IMG/VR virus record: IMGVR_UViG_3300025769_000922
Span: 1-22,530 of that record
DNA: 22,530 nt
DNA from: a virus
Direction: 5' to 3' (one strand)
The notes under the pieces: model-generated
What the model was told of the DNA's origin: nothing
The model's database searches: none
The model's input: only the letters and a program-made list of their open reading frames with translations
Made by a program: the position numbers and the translations under genes
In this document: one piece after another, positions 1,114 through 21,823 of the stretch
Layout: each line of letters begins with the position of its first letter
Position numbering within the stretch: position 1 is the stretch's first letter

Positions 1114-4100
1114 ATGGCAAATATTACGGTTAGCACATCTTCGAACATGGATGACCCAGCCAATCTAGCGTTAGGCAATGGGGAACAAATAACTATTACA
1201 AACAACGCAATACTGACTGTTGACAGTGACCACAAGTATTCACAACAAGCCGCAAATCCAAAAGTGGTTTTTACAAATGTTGGAACAAAGTATTTTGTTG
1301 ATGGGAAAAAAGTTTGGTGGATACCGTTTGACGCCTCAAGCGGTAATGTTCCAGCGTTATCAACATACGGCACAACAGACGTTGAAATAAGTTCCGTTGG
1401 AGTTGGCGAGTTTTTAGGTGTCTGGGCAAATCTTGGTGATGAAGCACCAATGACCGCAGGTACAGCATTACCCACAAGTGGCTACGTCAAACTGCGAGAA
1501 AAGACAGGCACAATAGCTGATAATGACGTGCTCACCTTCACAAACAACAGCGCAACAGTAACAGTCAACAGCGCAACAGGTGGCCAGCGTGGATGGATAA
1601 GAAGCACGCTTACAGACTTAAACTATCCAGGAGAAGATGGATACAAAGGTTATGGCACAATCGAGGTTGATGGTGATTGGTTCGAGCTTGGCACAAGTGA
1701 TGGAACAACAACGCAAACTTTTCAGTTTTACTTGCCAACAATAACAGCGGCCGTTCAAGTTGAAACTGGGGCAGGAACAGGGGTTTATGAATGGTGGTGC
1801 AATTATAGTACATCGCACGCAAGTTATCCTAACGCAATTAGAGGTTACACAAGCACAGCAACTGGTTTAATTACGTTTACAAAAGCTCCGCCCAATGGGG
1901 CAAAAGTGCGTGTTCCAAACGTATATCAAGGTAGTTTCTATAATATCAACACACTTTATCCAGCAAAATTTGCAGGCGTGTTGAATGTAACAATTAAAAA
2001 AGCGGTTTGTTGGGGCGGTTTCCAAGGGTATCAAACTTCATCACAGTTTTTGTTAGTTGCCAGTGCAACGGATTCAGTTTTGCAATTCTGGGTAAGTGGT
2101 GCCGCAGCTAAAACAGTAACGCTTACTAATTGCGCCAGCGATTACTTTCTTGCAAGTGTAAACGGTTGTGACACGTTGAGCATCTCAAATTGTTATTTAT
2201 TGCCAGGACGTTCTCCATTTGGCGTCACAGCAATAAACACAAAAACAGTTACAATTACTGACAGTTTTATTCATGCGGCTACAGGAGAAAAAGATAAAGC
2301 AGTAGAGCTAACTGGAGTGAGTGGCGGCAGTATATCGAATACAACAATGATTAGCGGTGGAAGCGGTGGTACGATTGTCAATGCCACAGGGGTAAATAAT
2401 TTTACGTTCAACAACGTATCGTTTTGCGCAAGAACAACCGCAGTAAATTACTCAAAGGGGTTTGCGTTTACGTTTCTTGATTCTAACGACATTGTTATAA
2501 ATGGAGTTTCAAAATTAAGTGGCGACTACGGAACAAACACTTCAGCTTATGGGTTATTGAGTGTTACTAACTGCTATCGTTTGCACGTAAGAAATATTGG
2601 GACGGCTTCAAATCCCTATGAATCTGACACTGGCGCAACTGCTACTAAACAAGCGTTAGCTACAGTTTCGGGTTGGTATGATAGTTCAATTTATAAAGTC
2701 TTTCATGAAAATCCGACTATTTATGGGATTAGATTATTTAATGTGAATATTACCGAGTGTGATAACGGTTCCAGCACAACAGGTTTTATTACGGTAAACG
2801 GCAATCAAAAACGAATGAAGTTCAATCCAAAAAAACAAGCAGCCAAATCAACAGGACCGTATTTCTTTGACGCTGTATATAATTCAGAAACGAGTATTGC
2901 GGTCGGCGTCAATTTCTGTGCGCCTTATTTGCGAGACGAGGTTGATAGATTAAAAGATATGGTTGAGGTTACAGTTGGCAATGAACAAGAGGTGTTTCCA
3001 GCGTTTACAAATATCTCTGAAGACCAGATACAAAACAAGGAAATTATATATACATGGAACTATTACGTTAAGGGAATAAACGCATTTAATACTTTTGACG
3101 AAACTGACTGGACCGTTATAAATAATTTATTTGATGGAAATTATCGTTCAGCAGATTACTACGCACGTTATTACCAGATTGATAACAGGAGCGGTTGGAG
3201 TGCTTGGAAGTCGTTGACAGGCGCAAATATAAGCGGCGAAACCCCAAATCCAGCAGGTTGTAGATTGCGTTTTAAGCTAGTTGGAACAACTAACGTAGCG
3301 AAGATAGCATGGAGAGGTACACTTGAGGGAACAACAACTCCTGCAATTATTGCGGCAAATCCTTACCCATTATCCGAGCCAAAAGTTATTGTTGATAATG
3401 CTGAAGCTGATACGCTTGTTGCATTGTTTAACGACAGTGACGGATTGTTAATGTCAATCGAAAAAGGTGTTGATACGATTACAACCTACAGTGAATATTA
3501 TCAAGCTAATCAAACGCAACGTGTTCGGATAGCAAAAGCGGGATATTATCCTCTACAAATCCCTTTGAATATTGTTGAAACGGAGCAAATCTTGCCTATC
3601 GTGCAAGAGGCAAACGGATTGCCGACTACTACACCAACAGCGACAGGGATAAGTGTAACTATTCACAGCACGCCGCAGCAATTAGGTGGTTTGGATTTTT
3701 CAATATCAATCGTTGTGACAGACGGCAGTTCACCAGCAACAATCGCTCATTACATAAACTATTATCGAGCGCAGGACGAATATAACTTACTTGGAACTTT
3801 GGCAAACATAGCGTTGCATGAAGCCGTGATTCCCGTAGGTACAAATTACGAAACGGCACGAGGACAAGTCTTTGGTTCAGCAGGGGCAACGCTCAAAGGC
3901 GTTCGGGTTGTAGATGGCAGTGGAAACGAGATTCCAGGGTTTGCTCGTATGCAAGCCGACGACGGAAGCTATTATTCGCCAGCGGCGGCATATACTCTTA
4001 CAGTAAGTAATATCGTGTCAGGCAGTCGGTTGCTTTTGAGAAGAACAGACACGCAAGCAGTGATTTACAATAATATCCCTGGCACTACGTTCACCCACAC

Positions 4101-4242
4101 ATATACTCACACTTCAGATATTCCAGTCGAAATAGTAGTGCGTAAAGCAACTACATCACCGTACTATCAGGAGTGGAGTACCACAACAACGCTATCTAAC
4201 AGTAACAACACACAAACGGCTAACCAATTAAGTGATGGATAA
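1114..4242 (+). CDS. Large beta-helix virion protein, probable adhesin or fibre, 1042 aa
   Basis: Longest gene in the window. The N-terminus (about 1-170) has a pattern I associate with phage structural proteins: ITITNNAILTVDSDHKY, a VWWIPFD strand, then a Gly/Thr-rich stretch ending near GWIRS. Residues about 330-500 repeat short rungs (TVTLTNC, TLSISNC, TVTITDS, GSISNTT, FTFNNVS, LLSVTNC), the signature of a right-handed parallel beta-helix as in tailspikes and pectate-lyase-like adhesins. Residues about 870-1020 resemble residues about 236-400 of the next gene product. No catalytic motif was identified, so receptor binding or decoration is more defensible than depolymerase activity. Leu codons differ from the capsid genes: 21 TTG and only 5 CTA of 61. 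It sits in an unusual place, between portal and scaffold. Confidence 0.8.
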   Translation: MANITVSTSSNMDDPANLALGNGEQITITNNAILTVDSDHKYSQQAANPKVVFTNVGTKYFVDGKKVWWIPFDASSGNVPALSTYGTTDVEISSVGVGEFLGVWANLGDEAPMTAGTALPTSGYVKLREKTGTIADNDVLTFTNNSATVTVNSATGGQRGWIRSTLTDLNYPGEDGYKGYGTIEVDGDWFELGTSDGTTTQTFQFYLPTITAAVQVETGAGTGVYEWWCNYSTSHASYPNAIRGYTSTATGLITFTKAPPNGAKVRVPNVYQGSFYNINTLYPAKFAGVLNVTIKKAVCWGGFQGYQTSSQFLLVASATDSVLQFWVSGAAAKTVTLTNCASDYFLASVNGCDTLSISNCYLLPGRSPFGVTAINTKTVTITDSFIHAATGEKDKAVELTGVSGGSISNTTMISGGSGGTIVNATGVNNFTFNNVSFCARTTAVNYSKGFAFTFLDSNDIVINGVSKLSGDYGTNTSAYGLLSVTNCYRLHVRNIGTASNPYESDTGATATKQALATVSGWYDSSIYKVFHENPTIYGIRLFNVNITECDNGSSTTGFITVNGNQKRMKFNPKKQAAKSTGPYFFDAVYNSETSIAVGVNFCAPYLRDEVDRLKDMVEVTVGNEQEVFPAFTNISEDQIQNKEIIYTWNYYVKGINAFNTFDETDWTVINNLFDGNYRSADYYARYYQIDNRSGWSAWKSLTGANISGETPNPAGCRLRFKLVGTTNVAKIAWRGTLEGTTTPAIIAANPYPLSEPKVIVDNAEADTLVALFNDSDGLLMSIEKGVDTITTYSEYYQANQTQRVRIAKAGYYPLQIPLNIVETEQILPIVQEANGLPTTTPTATGISVTIHSTPQQLGGLDFSISIVVTDGSSPATIAHYINYYRAQDEYNLLGTLANIALHEAVIPVGTNYETARGQVFGSAGATLKGVRVVDGSGNEIPGFARMQADDGSYYSPAAAYTLTVSNIVSGSRLLLRRTDTQAVIYNNIPGTTFTHTYTHTSDIPVEIVVRKATTSPYYQEWSTTTTLSNSNNTQTANQLSDG

Positions 4243-4245
4243 GAT

Positions 4246-5682
4246 ATGGCAATAGGTGACGATTTTTCAATAAGCGCAAATGGTGACATAAGGCACACAA
4301 GCGGTACTACGGTTTACAGCGTACTTGAATTGCATGAATGGCTGCAGGATTTAGCTGATGATGCTGCTTCAACTGGGAATGATGATCTTGATATTCTATC
4401 GCCTAATCCGTCAAAGTTAGATGGTCCTAGAGACAGTGCGGTAGCAAGTCGTCTTAACTTACTTACTGATGGTAGTGTAGCTTTTAACATTGATGACACT
4501 GCTGCTGAGTATTTTAATTTTGGATCAATTAAACAAGATGGCGCAGATGTTCAGTATTCCGGCTTAAAAACTATCGGTGGTATTGTTGCCAATAGCCCAG
4601 TTTATGTAGTGCAAAACGGTTCAAAGCTTACCTCATTTTGGGCAGATGGGCACATACAGATTTTAGTAAAAGTAAAAACTGGGGGAACCTTAATAGATGG
4701 CGGTGATGTTACTGCTTTCTCTCGAAAGTGGACACAAACCTACTCACACTTCGATGTTAATTTAGCAGCAGGTGGTGAGACTTCAGCAGCTCTTGCAACG
4801 GCAACGGATGGCAATATTACGCTTACCGAAGCACAAGCAGCAGCTCTATCAACAGATGTGGCAATTACGTTTGGCGATACAACTCAGGATTTAGGGAACG
4901 GTAATGGGTCAAAGTTATACAAAGGAACAATAGCTTTATCTAATGGCATAACGCTCCAGGAGGCGTATCAGTACCTTCAATACATTACTAGAGAAGGCAG
5001 TACAACAACGCTTAACAGCATACCAGGTTGGCGGTATCGAGTGCTAAATAGTGCATATACAGAAATACCTTCAGCTCCTTTCGGTACATTTGCTGGAGGT
5101 ACGTTCTTCTTTGCTCAAGGTTGGTATGTATCAGGAGTATTAGCAGCAGAAGCTACTAAGTATCAGCTAATTGCTCACGATGGTACGACACAAGTACCGC
5201 CTACAACTGTAACAATATCAGTAGGTAATCTTGTTTCAGGTGATAGAGTTCTGGTTGCTAGAGACAATGGAAGCGGAGGTATTCTTACCGATGAATACAC
5301 GCCAGCAGTTACAAGCTCAGGGGCTACATCTATTGTGGTAAGTGAGACAATTAAGACGGATACTCCGGCAGCAGGAGTAATACGGATAAAAGGGGCTAGA
5401 TATACTTACACAAGTATAACAGCAGGAACAAAAACCTTTAATGGCTTATCCCCTGCTTTAGCTGAAAACATACAAACTACCGATGAGGTATTTGTACCGT
5501 TTATAGATACAGCTACTACAACAACAAGTCAGTCAGTGTTGTTTGTGTATGACGCTAATTTTAATGCTAGAGTGGACGTAAGAAATGGTAGCGGTGTAGC
5601 TCCGATAATACCGTTTACTACTACAATAGGTGTGACTAATGCTGGTGGTAGTGTAAATGCCAGCCGTAACAGTGATGTGTAA
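4246..5682 (+). CDS. Phage structural protein, probable fibre or decoration component, 478 aa
   Basis: Begins three bases after the previous stop. The N-terminus contains VYSVLELHEWLQDLADDAA (about residues 24-42), followed by a Ser/Asp-rich stretch and many beta strands (YSGLKTIGGIV, IQILVKVKTGG). I recognise this arrangement from structural genes of diverse tailed phages, but its role has not, to my knowledge, been pinned down. Residues about 236-400 resemble the C-terminus of the preceding protein, including ISVGNLVSGDRVLVAR against VSNIVSGSRLLLRR. It ends in a Thr/Val-rich strand series. There is no signal peptide, TM segment or enzyme motif. A shared C-terminal module in adjacent genes suggests that the two proteins assemble side by side or bind a common partner. 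Confidence 0.8.
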   Translation: MAIGDDFSISANGDIRHTSGTTVYSVLELHEWLQDLADDAASTGNDDLDILSPNPSKLDGPRDSAVASRLNLLTDGSVAFNIDDTAAEYFNFGSIKQDGADVQYSGLKTIGGIVANSPVYVVQNGSKLTSFWADGHIQILVKVKTGGTLIDGGDVTAFSRKWTQTYSHFDVNLAAGGETSAALATATDGNITLTEAQAAALSTDVAITFGDTTQDLGNGNGSKLYKGTIALSNGITLQEAYQYLQYITREGSTTTLNSIPGWRYRVLNSAYTEIPSAPFGTFAGGTFFFAQGWYVSGVLAAEATKYQLIAHDGTTQVPPTTVTISVGNLVSGDRVLVARDNGSGGILTDEYTPAVTSSGATSIVVSETIKTDTPAAGVIRIKGARYTYTSITAGTKTFNGLSPALAENIQTTDEVFVPFIDTATTTTSQSVLFVYDANFNARVDVRNGSGVAPIIPFTTTIGVTNAGGSVNASRNSDV

Positions 5683-6308
5683 TGCCATATTACAGCGAGC
5701 CGTTTACCTTCAATTTTGATACGTCGCTAATAGCCGTCGATAGTGGAGTAGTCGATGTAGACTGCAATACTCTCTATGATGCTATTAAGTTAGCGCAATG
5801 GAGTGAGGAGGGAATTATCTATGAAAGAATCGGAAAAGGATCAGGGCTTGATGACCTCGGACCCGGCGTCCAAGTCGGTATCACCGTCGAGTTACTGGGG
5901 TCGTGGCAACTGTTGTTTCCAGTCGGAAACTACATTGCACGAGTCGCCGGAGGAAACCTCGTCGGAGGACCAGGGGGAGACCCAGTCGCTTACTCAGCAG
6001 GAGTGCAAACCCTCTTAATTCAATCAGCGAATAGTACGGTAGTTAGCACGTCTGGAAGCATACCTACAGCTACACAGATAGCGGATACAGTTTTGAAACG
6101 GTCTACAAGTAATGTAGAAGCAAGCGGAACAGGTGACACTTTATCGCTAAAATCGCTTTATGGAATGATTGCTCAAGGCGTTCATAACACACAGGTTAAT
6201 GGCTCAAAGCTGGTGATAACTAAAAGTGATGACAGTACGACGCTAGGGGAGCGTACTATAACAACTGATGCAACGGCATTACCGATTACAGGGCTAGATA
6301 GTGACTAA
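5682..6308 (+). CDS. Phage minor structural protein, 208 aa
   Basis: Start and the previous stop share a base (TAATG), so translation is coupled. The N-terminus (FTFNFDTSLIAVDSG, NTLYDAIKLAQW, LLGSWQLLFPVGNYIARVAGG) follows the order of a widespread phage tail or virion module: a strand-rich segment, a short helix, then a Trp-containing strand and a Gly-rich turn. Residues about 125-208 follow another common pattern: PTATQIADTVLKR, a helix (LSLKSLYGMIAQG), and a final strand LVITKSDDSTTLGERTI. This C-terminal part is common among minor structural proteins of tailed phages. Together with its two upstream neighbours it forms a co-translated block. The exact location in the virion is unknown. 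Confidence 0.75.
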   Translation: MPYYSEPFTFNFDTSLIAVDSGVVDVDCNTLYDAIKLAQWSEEGIIYERIGKGSGLDDLGPGVQVGITVELLGSWQLLFPVGNYIARVAGGNLVGGPGGDPVAYSAGVQTLLIQSANSTVVSTSGSIPTATQIADTVLKRSTSNVEASGTGDTLSLKSLYGMIAQGVHNTQVNGSKLVITKSDDSTTLGERTITTDATALPITGLDSD

Positions 6309-19294: not shown

Positions 19295-20230
19295 ATGGTT
19301 TGGAGCGGTGGAACATTTACAAGAATAGACGGTACAACTGGCTTTCAAGATGATGAGGCGGCCGGAACAGGTATAGAGAGTGGTATTATGGATACTGCTT
19401 TTAATGACCTTGCTACAGCGGGAATCAACGAGACGATAAACAAAGGTGGGCAAAACTCTCCGACTGCAAATCTTCCGATGGGCGGCTTTAAGCATACAGG
19501 TGTAGCTAATGCGACGGCTAGCGATCAATATATTTCATATGGTCAACTGCTAGATGTTTCAAAAGCCGTAACCTCAACCGGAACAGAGCCAGCTTATGAG
19601 GTTACTCTTACACCAACTCCAAGTGCATATTTTACTGGCATGACTTTCGATTTTTTATGCCATGCGTTGATGAGCGCAGATAGCGGTGGTACATTAAACG
19701 TGAATAGTTTGGGTGCAAAAGATATTTATATTGAGTTTAGTTCAAGTGGTGGTACAACACGACGAAGGCCAGCAAAAGGCGAGTTATGTTCGGGACAAGC
19801 ATATCGAGTTACTTACAACGGCACCGAGTTTATTTTGCATAACCCTACCTTTTCCTCGACGCAGATAGATTTTACTCCAACCTGGGGCTCCGCATCGGGA
19901 ACAATTTCGCTAATAACAAATACTGATACCAACTATCGTTATTTGTCCGCCTCGACAATTAAGTTTACTAGTTATTGCACGTTAAGTTTAGCAGGCGCAG
20001 CGTCGCAATATATTGCGATACAGCTCCCTTTTACGGCCGATAACGGAGAGGATCAAACTATTTGTCCAGCAATGTTGAGAAATATTGGCGGATCGAGCTT
20101 AGTCGGCATGATTGGAATATTTGGAAACGGAGGTACTGAGTTACGAATATTTAACACCGATTACAGTTTGATACCGATTGATACTAATTTTTTCGCAAAT
20201 ATAGATGTAATTTATAATATTGAGAGTTAG
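19295..20230 (+). CDS. Tail fibre / receptor-binding protein, 311 aa
   Basis: GAGGGTAAG precedes the ATG. The N-terminus (about 1-88) is a familiar tail fibre attachment start: WSGGTFTRIDGTTGFQDDEA, GIESGIMDTAFNDLATAGIN, then GGQNSPTANLPMGGFKHTGV and ASDQYISYGQL. The C-terminal two thirds is all-beta (YFTGMTFDFLCHALM, YRVTYNGTEFILHN, TDNGE-like strands, RIFNTDYSLIPI) and probably binds the host receptor. Length is short for a fibre, so a compact spike or tip is likely. From about 19620 onward CTA Leu codons are nearly absent and TTG/TTA dominate, unlike most flanking genes, suggesting domain exchange. It attaches to the short tail and determines host range. Confidence 0.8.
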   Translation: MVWSGGTFTRIDGTTGFQDDEAAGTGIESGIMDTAFNDLATAGINETINKGGQNSPTANLPMGGFKHTGVANATASDQYISYGQLLDVSKAVTSTGTEPAYEVTLTPTPSAYFTGMTFDFLCHALMSADSGGTLNVNSLGAKDIYIEFSSSGGTTRRRPAKGELCSGQAYRVTYNGTEFILHNPTFSSTQIDFTPTWGSASGTISLITNTDTNYRYLSASTIKFTSYCTLSLAGAASQYIAIQLPFTADNGEDQTICPAMLRNIGGSSLVGMIGIFGNGGTELRIFNTDYSLIPIDTNFFANIDVIYNIES

Positions 20231-20231
20231 C

Positions 20232-20636
20232 GTGAAGCCGTTAATCTTACAGCGGTGTTTGCAATATCCTACCAGTACTTTTGGCATACTTGTGGTTAAT
20301 GACGAGCCAAAGTTTGTTACGATAGAAAAACCGTGGCTAAATAACGAGCGTAACATTAGCTGTATTCCGATCGGGCGTTATGTTGTAAGACCGCACGACT
20401 CTCCTACTTTTGGCAAAACTCTTTTAGTCGAAGGAGTAAAAGATAGAGACCATATTTTAATCCATGCCGGCAATACCTCAGCAGATACTAAGGGCTGCAT
20501 CCTTATTGGTACGGAGTTCGGTGGCTTAAATGGTATGCGAGCGATACTAAAGAGTAGAGTAGCGCTTAGAAAGCTTCTTAGTATAATTGAGGAGCCAACA
20601 GAGTTTATAGTGCGAGTGGGCTTTACTTATGGCTGA
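20232..20636 (+). CDS. DUF5675 family protein, possible murein-active lysis factor, 134 aa
   Basis: I choose GTG 20232 (two bases after the fibre stop) because the family starts close to the strand PLILQRC; a TTG at 20220 would add four residues. Motifs match the DUF5675 pattern: STFGILVVNDEPKFVTIEKP (14-33), NNERNISCIPIGRY (37-50), SPTFG, then DHILIHAGNTSADTKGCILI (73-92). Histidine 78 with the Gly-Cys pair at 88-89 resembles the His/Cys arrangement of L,D-transpeptidase-like domains, which suggests a peptidoglycan target. The catalytic role is unproven for this family. It opens the cassette between tail fibre and holin. Overlaps the next gene by eight bases. Confidence 0.75.
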   Translation: MKPLILQRCLQYPTSTFGILVVNDEPKFVTIEKPWLNNERNISCIPIGRYVVRPHDSPTFGKTLLVEGVKDRDHILIHAGNTSADTKGCILIGTEFGGLNGMRAILKSRVALRKLLSIIEEPTEFIVRVGFTYG

Positions 20637-20862
20637 TATAGATAAGTTTCAGTATTGGTTTGATATTGTGGTAAAGGGCGCTATAGGCGGTCTTATTGCT
20701 TTAATGGGCTGGGATTATCGCGGTGTTAAGTCTCATTTAGAAGACCTCCAGCAAGCCAGGTATCACGTTCAAAGCGACGTTTCTGTAGTACAAACGGAGC
20801 TAAGGTACATTAAACAACAAGTAGATAAGATTGATTCTAAGATAGATAAACTAGTTAAGTGA
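20629..20862 (+). CDS. Small TM plus coiled-coil protein, holin/XhlA-like or inner spanin-like, 77 aa
   Basis: Residues about 12-29 (DIVVKGAIGGLIALMGW) form one membrane segment; residues about 35-77 form a charged coiled coil (VVQTELRYIKQQVDKIDSKI). This TM-then-coil layout is seen in small phage lysis-region proteins that are often called holin-like or XhlA-like, although in XhlA the TM is C-terminal. An inner-membrane spanin also combines one N-terminal TM with a coiled periplasmic part, so that is a second possibility. GTGA overlap with the next gene couples translation. The position among lysis genes supports membrane action; the exact role is uncertain. Confidence 0.65.
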   Translation: MADIDKFQYWFDIVVKGAIGGLIALMGWDYRGVKSHLEDLQQARYHVQSDVSVVQTELRYIKQQVDKIDSKIDKLVK

Positions 20863-21680
20863 GATGGTTTTTTTTACTACTACTGCTCCCCAGGTTAGCC
20901 GACGCCGATGCGGGGTTGTCATATCTTGGGTTGTGCTCACCGGAGTGGAATTGCAAGGCAACGATTAAAAGCTTTGATAGTGTAGATACCATTTACACTG
21001 GCTGGCTTGAGAATACGTTTGCAAAAGGTTGTAGGTGCGGTGAGAGGTTATTGAGACAAGAAAAGCCGGTAGTGCTTAGAGTACATTTAACCAACTCTCC
21101 TTGCCTCAGGAACGGAAGATGCGGTAGTTATGAGGTGTTCGCTGGTGAGACTGTAAAGACAGCCAGCAGAAAGATTGTTAAAAGAAATAGGCGATTACTA
21201 ACTAAGTATAGAAGGGTAGTAAAGCGCTTTAAGAGGAGGTTAGACAATGCCACAGCGCCGGTATCTTGCTACGTTAGTCCGTGTTTGGAATGTGATTTGT
21301 CAGGAGCCGCTCGGCGCTTGTTGCATAATTATACAGCTCGGTTACTTCCTAATTGTGCTTTGGTTGATAGCGTTTATCGTCGGCGGTGTCTAAAGAATAC
21401 AATCTGCGAGAAACACGGTTCTACTCCTAGTTTTAAGGATGATAACTGCATAGCAGACCTAGACGGAGAAGACGGTAGAGTAACTAACCTAGCGGTTTTT
21501 AAGGATTATACTAAGCAATGCTTATTTAGGCATTACTGGGAGCCGATGTATAACTGTATCAGAAGGGGTTATTTTGTAGACCCAAGGAAAAGAGACTGTA
21601 AGTATAGTAGCAGGGAGATTATTAAGAAAGGAGGAGTGTTATGTCACTTATCATTCAATCAATCGTGCGACACGTTATAA
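20859..21680 (+). CDS. Sec-exported cysteine-rich protein of unknown function in lysis cassette, 273 aa
   Basis: GTG start in a GTGA overlap. Residues 1-18 are a signal peptide (MRWFFLLLLLPRLADADA) with a likely cut after an Ala and no lipobox Cys. The mature chain has 18 cysteines, implying disulfides and folding in the periplasm or outside. Characteristic segments: SYLGLCSPEWNCKATIKSFD, TGWLENTFAKGCRCGERLL, VLRVHLTNSPCLRNGRCGSY, YVSPCLECDLSGAARRLL, HYWEPMYNCIRRGYFVDP. I recall similar sequences only from uncharacterised environmental phage proteins. Alternating strands and helices with acidic residues near strand ends would fit a TIM-barrel hydrolase, but no catalytic motif is established. 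Its 3' end overlaps the holin gene by 40 bases. Candidates: novel endolysin, secreted glycosidase, or envelope modifier. Confidence 0.8.
   Translation: MRWFFLLLLLPRLADADAGLSYLGLCSPEWNCKATIKSFDSVDTIYTGWLENTFAKGCRCGERLLRQEKPVVLRVHLTNSPCLRNGRCGSYEVFAGETVKTASRKIVKRNRRLLTKYRRVVKRFKRRLDNATAPVSCYVSPCLECDLSGAARRLLHNYTARLLPNCALVDSVYRRRCLKNTICEKHGSTPSFKDDNCIADLDGEDGRVTNLAVFKDYTKQCLFRHYWEPMYNCIRRGYFVDPRKRDCKYSSREIIKKGGVLCHLSFNQSCDTL
21628..21634 (+). promoter_or_regulatory. Strong Shine-Dalgarno site for the holin
   Basis: AAGGAGG lies six bases before ATG 21641, inside the 3' end of the cysteine-rich gene. It decides the start within a 40-base overlap and predicts efficient, independent translation of the holin. 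Confidence 0.8.
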
Positions 21681-21823
21681 CGCTAGCAGCCGGAGCTTTA
21701 CTTTCAATCGGAGTAACGCAACAGCAGACTGATGATCTAGCAAAGACTGTAACGCCGATAGCGGAAGCTGCAGTGCTTTATGGCATTGCTCAAGTTTGGT
21801 CGATTAAAGAAAAGAAGCGCTAG
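21641..21823 (+). CDS. Holin, Pam3-gp28-like, 60 aa
   Basis: Small protein with two predicted hydrophobic segments (about 4-24, IIQSIVRHVITLAAGALLSIG; about 38-54, PIAEAAVLYGIAQVWSI) joined by a short polar loop (TQQQTDDLAKT), ending in the basic tail KEKKR. This is the layout of Pam3-gp28-type putative phage holins, which begin with a similar IQSIIRH-like helix and end in a Trp followed by Lys-rich residues. It would accumulate in the inner membrane and time lysis. Its stop codon overlaps the stop of the opposite-strand gene within the tetranucleotide CTAG. It is the last gene of the late operon in view. Confidence 0.8.
   Translation: MSLIIQSIVRHVITLAAGALLSIGVTQQQTDDLAKTVTPIAEAAVLYGIAQVWSIKEKKR

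Follow-up and report, generated by a model that had tools for sequence, protein, structure and literature searches.

Our study describes a family of phage proteins, unnamed in every library that we searched, which is disulfide-rich, is predicted to fold as a TIM barrel and is fixed in lysis cassettes; it is here that the novelty lies. Its representative, which we call CYS, is the product of the open reading frame at positions 20859-21680 (+) of the window, that is, of the whole 22,530-nucleotide virus record analysed (IMGVR_UViG_3300025769_000922). Judging from the sequence and the model, the best explanation that we can offer, to which we give an even chance, is that CYS is exported by the Sec route, folds as a TIM barrel stabilised by disulfides and acts at lysis as a hydrolase of the envelope, probably a glycosidase.

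Export, cysteines and relatives of CYS

The 273-residue protein is encoded by an intact reading frame whose GTG start overlaps by 4 bases the stop of the upstream TM/coiled-coil gene. The original prediction had singled it out for its 18 cysteines and for a signal peptide without a lipobox, and both descriptions hold. Cysteine makes up 6.6% of CYS and 0.4% of the other 21 proteins of the window (27 in 6780 residues; binomial p ~1.5e-16). The N-terminus, MRWFFLLLLLPRLADADA followed by G, has the form of a Sec signal peptide lacking a lipobox, which covers residues 1-18 (20859-20912, +) and has its predicted cleavage site between ADA and G. A hydrophobic core and an AxA-like site are retained in 61 of 61 nonredundant relatives, so that none of these homologues has lost the peptide; in the family member L064, a lipobox takes the place of the AxA-type site.

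Across the family, the cysteine columns vanish strictly in pairs: 137/166 was lost in L087/L088 and, separately, in L106; 142/145 in the lineage of L051, L057, L109, L113 and L114; 233/247 in L064; and the C-terminal pair is missing in several lineages. The number of cysteines in the mature part is even in 90 of 93 sequences, the three odd ones being cut by contig ends, and three members found later (L288, L292 and L306) have 14 each. Because the cysteines are lost pairwise and every intact copy has an even number of them in its mature part, we take them to be joined in disulfides. Paired loss and parity, together with the universal signal peptide, constitute strong evidence that CYS would fold oxidatively outside the cytoplasm, as had been proposed at the outset, and the family appears to carry both marks of a Sec-exported periplasmic disulfide protein, a cleavable signal peptide and paired cysteines.

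Three scans of IMG/VR returned 137, 176 and 174 relatives of CYS, from which the best 80 of each run were retained. Scans of CYS and 59 relatives with Pfam, PHROGs and NCBIfam gave matches at chance level only, and no profile of a known endolysin family (GH24, SLT, M15, amidases, DUF5675 and others) in these libraries matched CYS. A tblastn search gave no match among 50,697 phage records or among 72,556 plasmid records, and when 84,980 species of bacteria and archaea were scanned by motif, no relative emerged. A streptococcal exotoxin fragment, obtained as a sequence-profile match in the PDB, was rejected as a chance hit (E ~1). At the level of structure, three proteins of uncultured Caudovirales in BFVD (A0A6J5M538, A0A6J5SYH0 and A0A6J5MYV4) match the CYS fold with Foldseek E-values of 3e-18, 1.5e-14 and 1.5e-11, respectively. 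They have the same fold at 21-26% identity and differ in being annotated as uncharacterised and, for two of them, in being longer (451 and 375 residues); they are almost certainly distant members of the family. The tree of the family resolves two supported clades, the DUF5675-type members and all others (99/98).

Lysis cassettes and their genomic context

In the window, the cassette begins with a DUF5675 protein (20232-20636, +, or from 20220; PF18925, E 1.9e-31), a candidate endolysin whose probable start is the GTG at 20232, which agrees better with the relatives than the TTG at 20220. It is followed by a 77-residue TM and coiled-coil protein (20629-20862, +), by CYS and by a holin-like protein of the Phage_holin_10 (Pam3 gp28) family (21641-21823, +; PF23987, E 1.9e-6 in the window and 3.5e-8 in the relative L010). 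The holin-like gene overlaps the 3' end of CYS by 40 bases, and its start and AGGAGG-type ribosome site lie inside CYS. The gene is thus flanked as originally described, by a TM/coiled-coil gene and a holin. As for DUF5675 itself, a putative endolysin family, the window protein has a motif, His-x-Gly-Asn ... Gly-Cys-Ile, that recalls L,D-transpeptidases; the family also occurs in microviruses and many Vibrio phages, and the literature on it gives no function.

Four types of cassette were distinguished. The first and common one has the order DUF5675, TM/coiled coil, CYS and Phage_holin_10, followed by convergent genes. All 131 loci that have a TM gene as well as a holin gene carry CYS between the two. 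Four loci were recorded without CYS, each ending at a contig edge, which leaves no true cassette lacking CYS; in these counts certain contigs appear twice, and the searches are biased towards close relatives. The second type consists of a coil/TM gene, an SLT transglycosylase (157 residues; PF01464, E 3e-14), CYS and a 57-residue TM protein. In the third (L115), a coil/TM gene and a GH24 lysozyme (PF00959, E 2.6e-7) precede CYS in the form of a lipoprotein with an extension, and a 75-residue protein follows; this lipoprotein (L115:6001-7308, equivalent to L064:5788-7095; LLAAC followed by S) has an extra C-terminal domain of ~100 residues and is encoded on a 59-kb contig. The fourth type (L287/L288, L292/L293 and L306) runs from tail fibre through TM/coil to CYS, with no wall hydrolase adjacent. 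Its records lack DUF5675, and their sole SLT match, where there is any, is a virion protein of ~1100 residues. One of them, G030, is a near-complete, integrase-bearing genome of 33.8 kb, and Pfam found no endolysin family in 20 further genes of it; among the genes scanned in this linear record, which like G027 possibly lacks a short stretch, CYS appears to be the only candidate lysis enzyme.

The neighbouring wall hydrolase is therefore swapped (DUF5675, SLT or GH24) or missing while CYS remains, and the CYS gene, placed where the late operon ends, comes after either a small TM/coiled-coil gene or an endolysin. In our neighbour survey of IMG/VR, relatives stay with lysis genes in all cassette types and were not encoded away from them, which bears out the assignment to a lysis cassette. 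Since CYS adjoins another wall-hydrolase candidate in most cassettes, it may be an accessory protein and not the endolysin. A related genome, L124 (MW202489), ends its late operon (20056-20979) with a 137-residue, a 66-residue and a LydA-holin-like gene and has no CYS there.

Several lineages of these phages, G027 and G030 not among them, encode a second SLT transglycosylase of ~160-190 residues that is exported or membrane-anchored (L128:2816-3307, L130:14527-15030, L115:8015-8593 (-) and L031:11694-12167 (-)). Its Gly/Ala-rich N-terminal TM segment resembles a SAR anchor, and the gene is located some kilobases past the cassette, close to recT-like genes and on the other strand. The early region encodes a small lipoprotein (LSGCTGIExGGK...VPLKCYxxDC type) that adjoins a TM protein of 54-61 residues (L128:2431-2819, L031:12164-12538 (-), L115:8590-9072 (-) and L371:6665-6868 (-)); the phage of the window has a pair that differs in sequence (L002:11107-11558 (-)). 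These pairs are possible spanins or superinfection-exclusion pairs, and we dropped the idea that CYS phages lack spanins, as such pairs occur elsewhere in the genomes. The capsid relatives of the window phage belong to Bradyrhizobium, Stenotrophomonas and Myxococcus phages (~35% identity), from which we infer a Gram-negative host; a scan of bacterial genomes with the capsid protein found no relative. The tail-fibre genes (window 1114-6308; L131:13117-19175 (-)) are shared with the phage G002. Its capsid gene seems to be of a different type, which suggests that phages infecting a common host have exchanged modules.

Predicted fold and conserved face

The AlphaFold2 model built on a 59-sequence alignment (pLDDT 91.2, pTM 0.87; from the single sequence, pLDDT was 38.6 and the model unusable) has eight strands alternating with helices in a TIM barrel. 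The strands, encoded within 20907-21536 (+), comprise residues 17-21, 45-50, 71-76, 135-140, 167-172, 182-186, 197-200 and 223-226. Active sites of TIM barrels sit at the C-terminal ends of the strands, and 21 of the 30 invariant non-cysteine residues of CYS fall in the 74 of 215 positions near these ends (p=2e-5); R74, H76, E144, D146, D170, E184, H186, D200, D202, W227 and N232 lie on this face, in or just past the strand ends. A (beta/alpha)8 enzyme with a conserved C-terminal face is thus well supported as a prediction, and the model matches no virion structural family.

Conservation of motifs was judged on 42 sequences below 80% identity. The three segments that had been described as invariant-looking are so only in part: in SPEWNCKATIKSFD, C26 and C32 alone are conserved; in LTNSPCLRNGRC, P81, C82, R84, N85, R87 and C88; and in YWEPMYNC, W227, N232 and C233. 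Stronger motifs had been overlooked, namely CYVSP-LE-D (138-146), VD (169-170), CExHG (183-187) and CIxDxDG (197-203).

The highest Foldseek probabilities against the PDB were obtained for glycosidases (GH35, 0.98 and 0.97; GH29 AlfC, 0.93; GH26, 0.82), but no match reached E <=1e-3, and the best TM-scores were about 0.45-0.48. The structural comparison proposed originally has therefore yielded a barrel compatible with a glycosidase and no significant PDB match, and a glycosidase function, which draws on fold class and not on homology because of these E-values and low TM-scores, is plausible only. With the glycoside hydrolases of clan GH-A and GH29 (GH35 3d3a, GH26, GH29 AlfC and PslG), the model has in common the TIM barrel and conserved acidic residues after strands 4 and 7. 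However, CYS lacks the signature of clan GH-A, in which strand 4 carries an Asn-Glu acid/base and strand 7 a Glu nucleophile: it has Leu-Glu144 at strand 4 and D200/D202 at strand 7, with no invariant Glu there. It is also small, has 7-9 disulfides and shows no significant E-value in sequence or structure, neither Pfam and NCBIfam nor Foldseek against the PDB pointing to clan GH-A homology.

Possible functions and known systems

In the mechanism that we favour, CYS would be a late product of the unit formed by the TM/coiled-coil, CYS and holin genes, whose translation is apparently coupled; it would be exported by the host Sec system and freed of its signal peptide. The mature protein would then fold in the periplasm into a TIM barrel with seven to nine disulfides, as sequence covariation and the model suggest, and present a catalytic face with Glu144/Asp146 after strand 4, Asp170 at strand 5, Glu184/His186 at strand 6 and Asp200/Asp202 at strand 7. 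It may cleave an envelope polymer, with a glycan as the most likely substrate and peptidoglycan as a good possibility. Where it has a wall hydrolase as its neighbour (DUF5675, SLT or GH24), the two would work together, and elsewhere CYS would work alone; candidates for restraining it until lysis are the coupled TM/coiled-coil protein and the holin-driven loss of membrane potential. The idea of a Sec-exported endolysin, glycosidase or envelope modifier has thus gained support for export, oxidative folding, cassette location and a glycosidase-compatible fold, but not for lytic or glycosidase activity. The fourth cassette type favours peptidoglycan as the substrate, while the three endolysin-type partners and the lipoprotein form favour an outer glycan. 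Two points tell against the glycosidase reading: a second glycan-cleaving endolysin beside SLT or GH24 looks redundant, and the invariant Asp, Glu and His residues could equally bind metal. We advance only tentatively the narrower proposal that CYS represents a new endolysin family, in which a TIM-barrel glycosidase with muralytic activity, stabilised by disulfides and secreted by the Sec route with loss of its signal peptide, can serve phages of probably Gram-negative hosts as sole endolysin (G027/G030-type) or beside DUF5675, SLT or GH24.

A somewhat unlikely alternative is an accessory outer-layer enzyme in a role like that of LysB. Its target would not be peptidoglycan but a glycan of the outer membrane, the LPS or the capsule, or another one specific to the host, and its action would let the progeny escape once the endolysin has acted. 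It would account for the company of three chemically different types of wall hydrolase and for the L064/L115 lipoprotein, whose C-terminal extension would suit outer-membrane anchoring; consistent with it are also the lack of any Rz match in 25 records and of a convincing lipobox ORF in 61 CYS cassettes, and the tail-fibre genes shared by lineages with different capsid proteins, which suggest one host. However, no other candidate endolysin was found among the genes scanned in phages of the G027/G030 type, and the separate lipoprotein and TM pair of several genomes could be the spanin.

We consider it rather improbable that CYS is a metal-dependent TIM-barrel hydrolase of other chemistry (for instance a phosphodiesterase, a phospholipase or a deacetylase) whose substrates are lipids of the envelope or modified glycans. 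The invariant H76, E144-x-D146, D170, E184-x-H186 and D200-x-D202 do form a dense acidic and histidine set on the barrel face, and the weak Foldseek matches include metal-dependent aldolases, an epimerase and a UV endonuclease; however, Foldseek probabilities are higher for glycosidases, the aldolases superpose badly (rmsd ~13 A), and no such family was matched by sequence in Pfam or NCBIfam.

There is little probability, in our estimate, that CYS is a periplasmic regulator of lysis or a superinfection-exclusion factor whose barrel binds and does not catalyse. It is exported and disulfide-bonded, its gene overlaps genes of membrane proteins, and its position is like that of the exported antiholin RI of T4, which likewise carries a cleavable signal peptide (PMC8385771); but ~20 invariant residues, many of them acidic, on a TIM-barrel face across several cassette types would not be expected of a regulator, and CYS persists where the holin and TM genes are exchanged. 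That CYS is a virion or adsorption protein merely lying beside lysis genes is very improbable, for although it follows tail-fibre genes in the late operon, a conserved cleavable signal peptide and disulfides are unfit for cytoplasmic virion assembly, and no structural family matched it.

CYS represents a phage family that is widespread but unnamed, is conserved in the manner of an enzyme and depends to an unusual degree on disulfide formation in the periplasm. If it is lytic, phages that are probably Gram-negative have a further type of endolysin, exported by means of a cleavable signal peptide; one would then have to ask how a wall enzyme in the periplasm is restrained until lysis, and CYS would offer a stable envelope-acting scaffold. 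If its substrate is an outer glycan, CYS would give lysis an enzymatic function at the outer layer, next to that of the spanins. It differs from spanins (o-spanin/u-spanin) themselves, as the window protein has no lipobox and L064/L115, which have one, show no evident C-terminal TM segment such as a u-spanin has. To our knowledge, the fold of Lys44 is unrelated to that of CYS, and LysB is an alpha/beta-hydrolase, whereas the CYS model is a TIM barrel. Lys44 of the Oenococcus phage fOg44 is a Sec-exported endolysin with a cleavable signal peptide (PMC6116005), features in which CYS resembles it, but its host is Gram-positive, and CYS is a putative lysis enzyme. The SAR endolysins of Gram-negative phages (P1 Lyz and phage 21 R21) are also Sec-exported lysis enzymes (PMC8879335); their anchor stays uncleaved, whereas CYS has an AxA-like cleavage site after its hydrophobic core and so does not belong with them. 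Mycobacteriophage LysB, a mycolylarabinogalactan esterase, acts on the envelope in addition to the endolysin (PMC6116005). It is not reported to be Sec-exported; CYS may share with it this role of an extra envelope enzyme.
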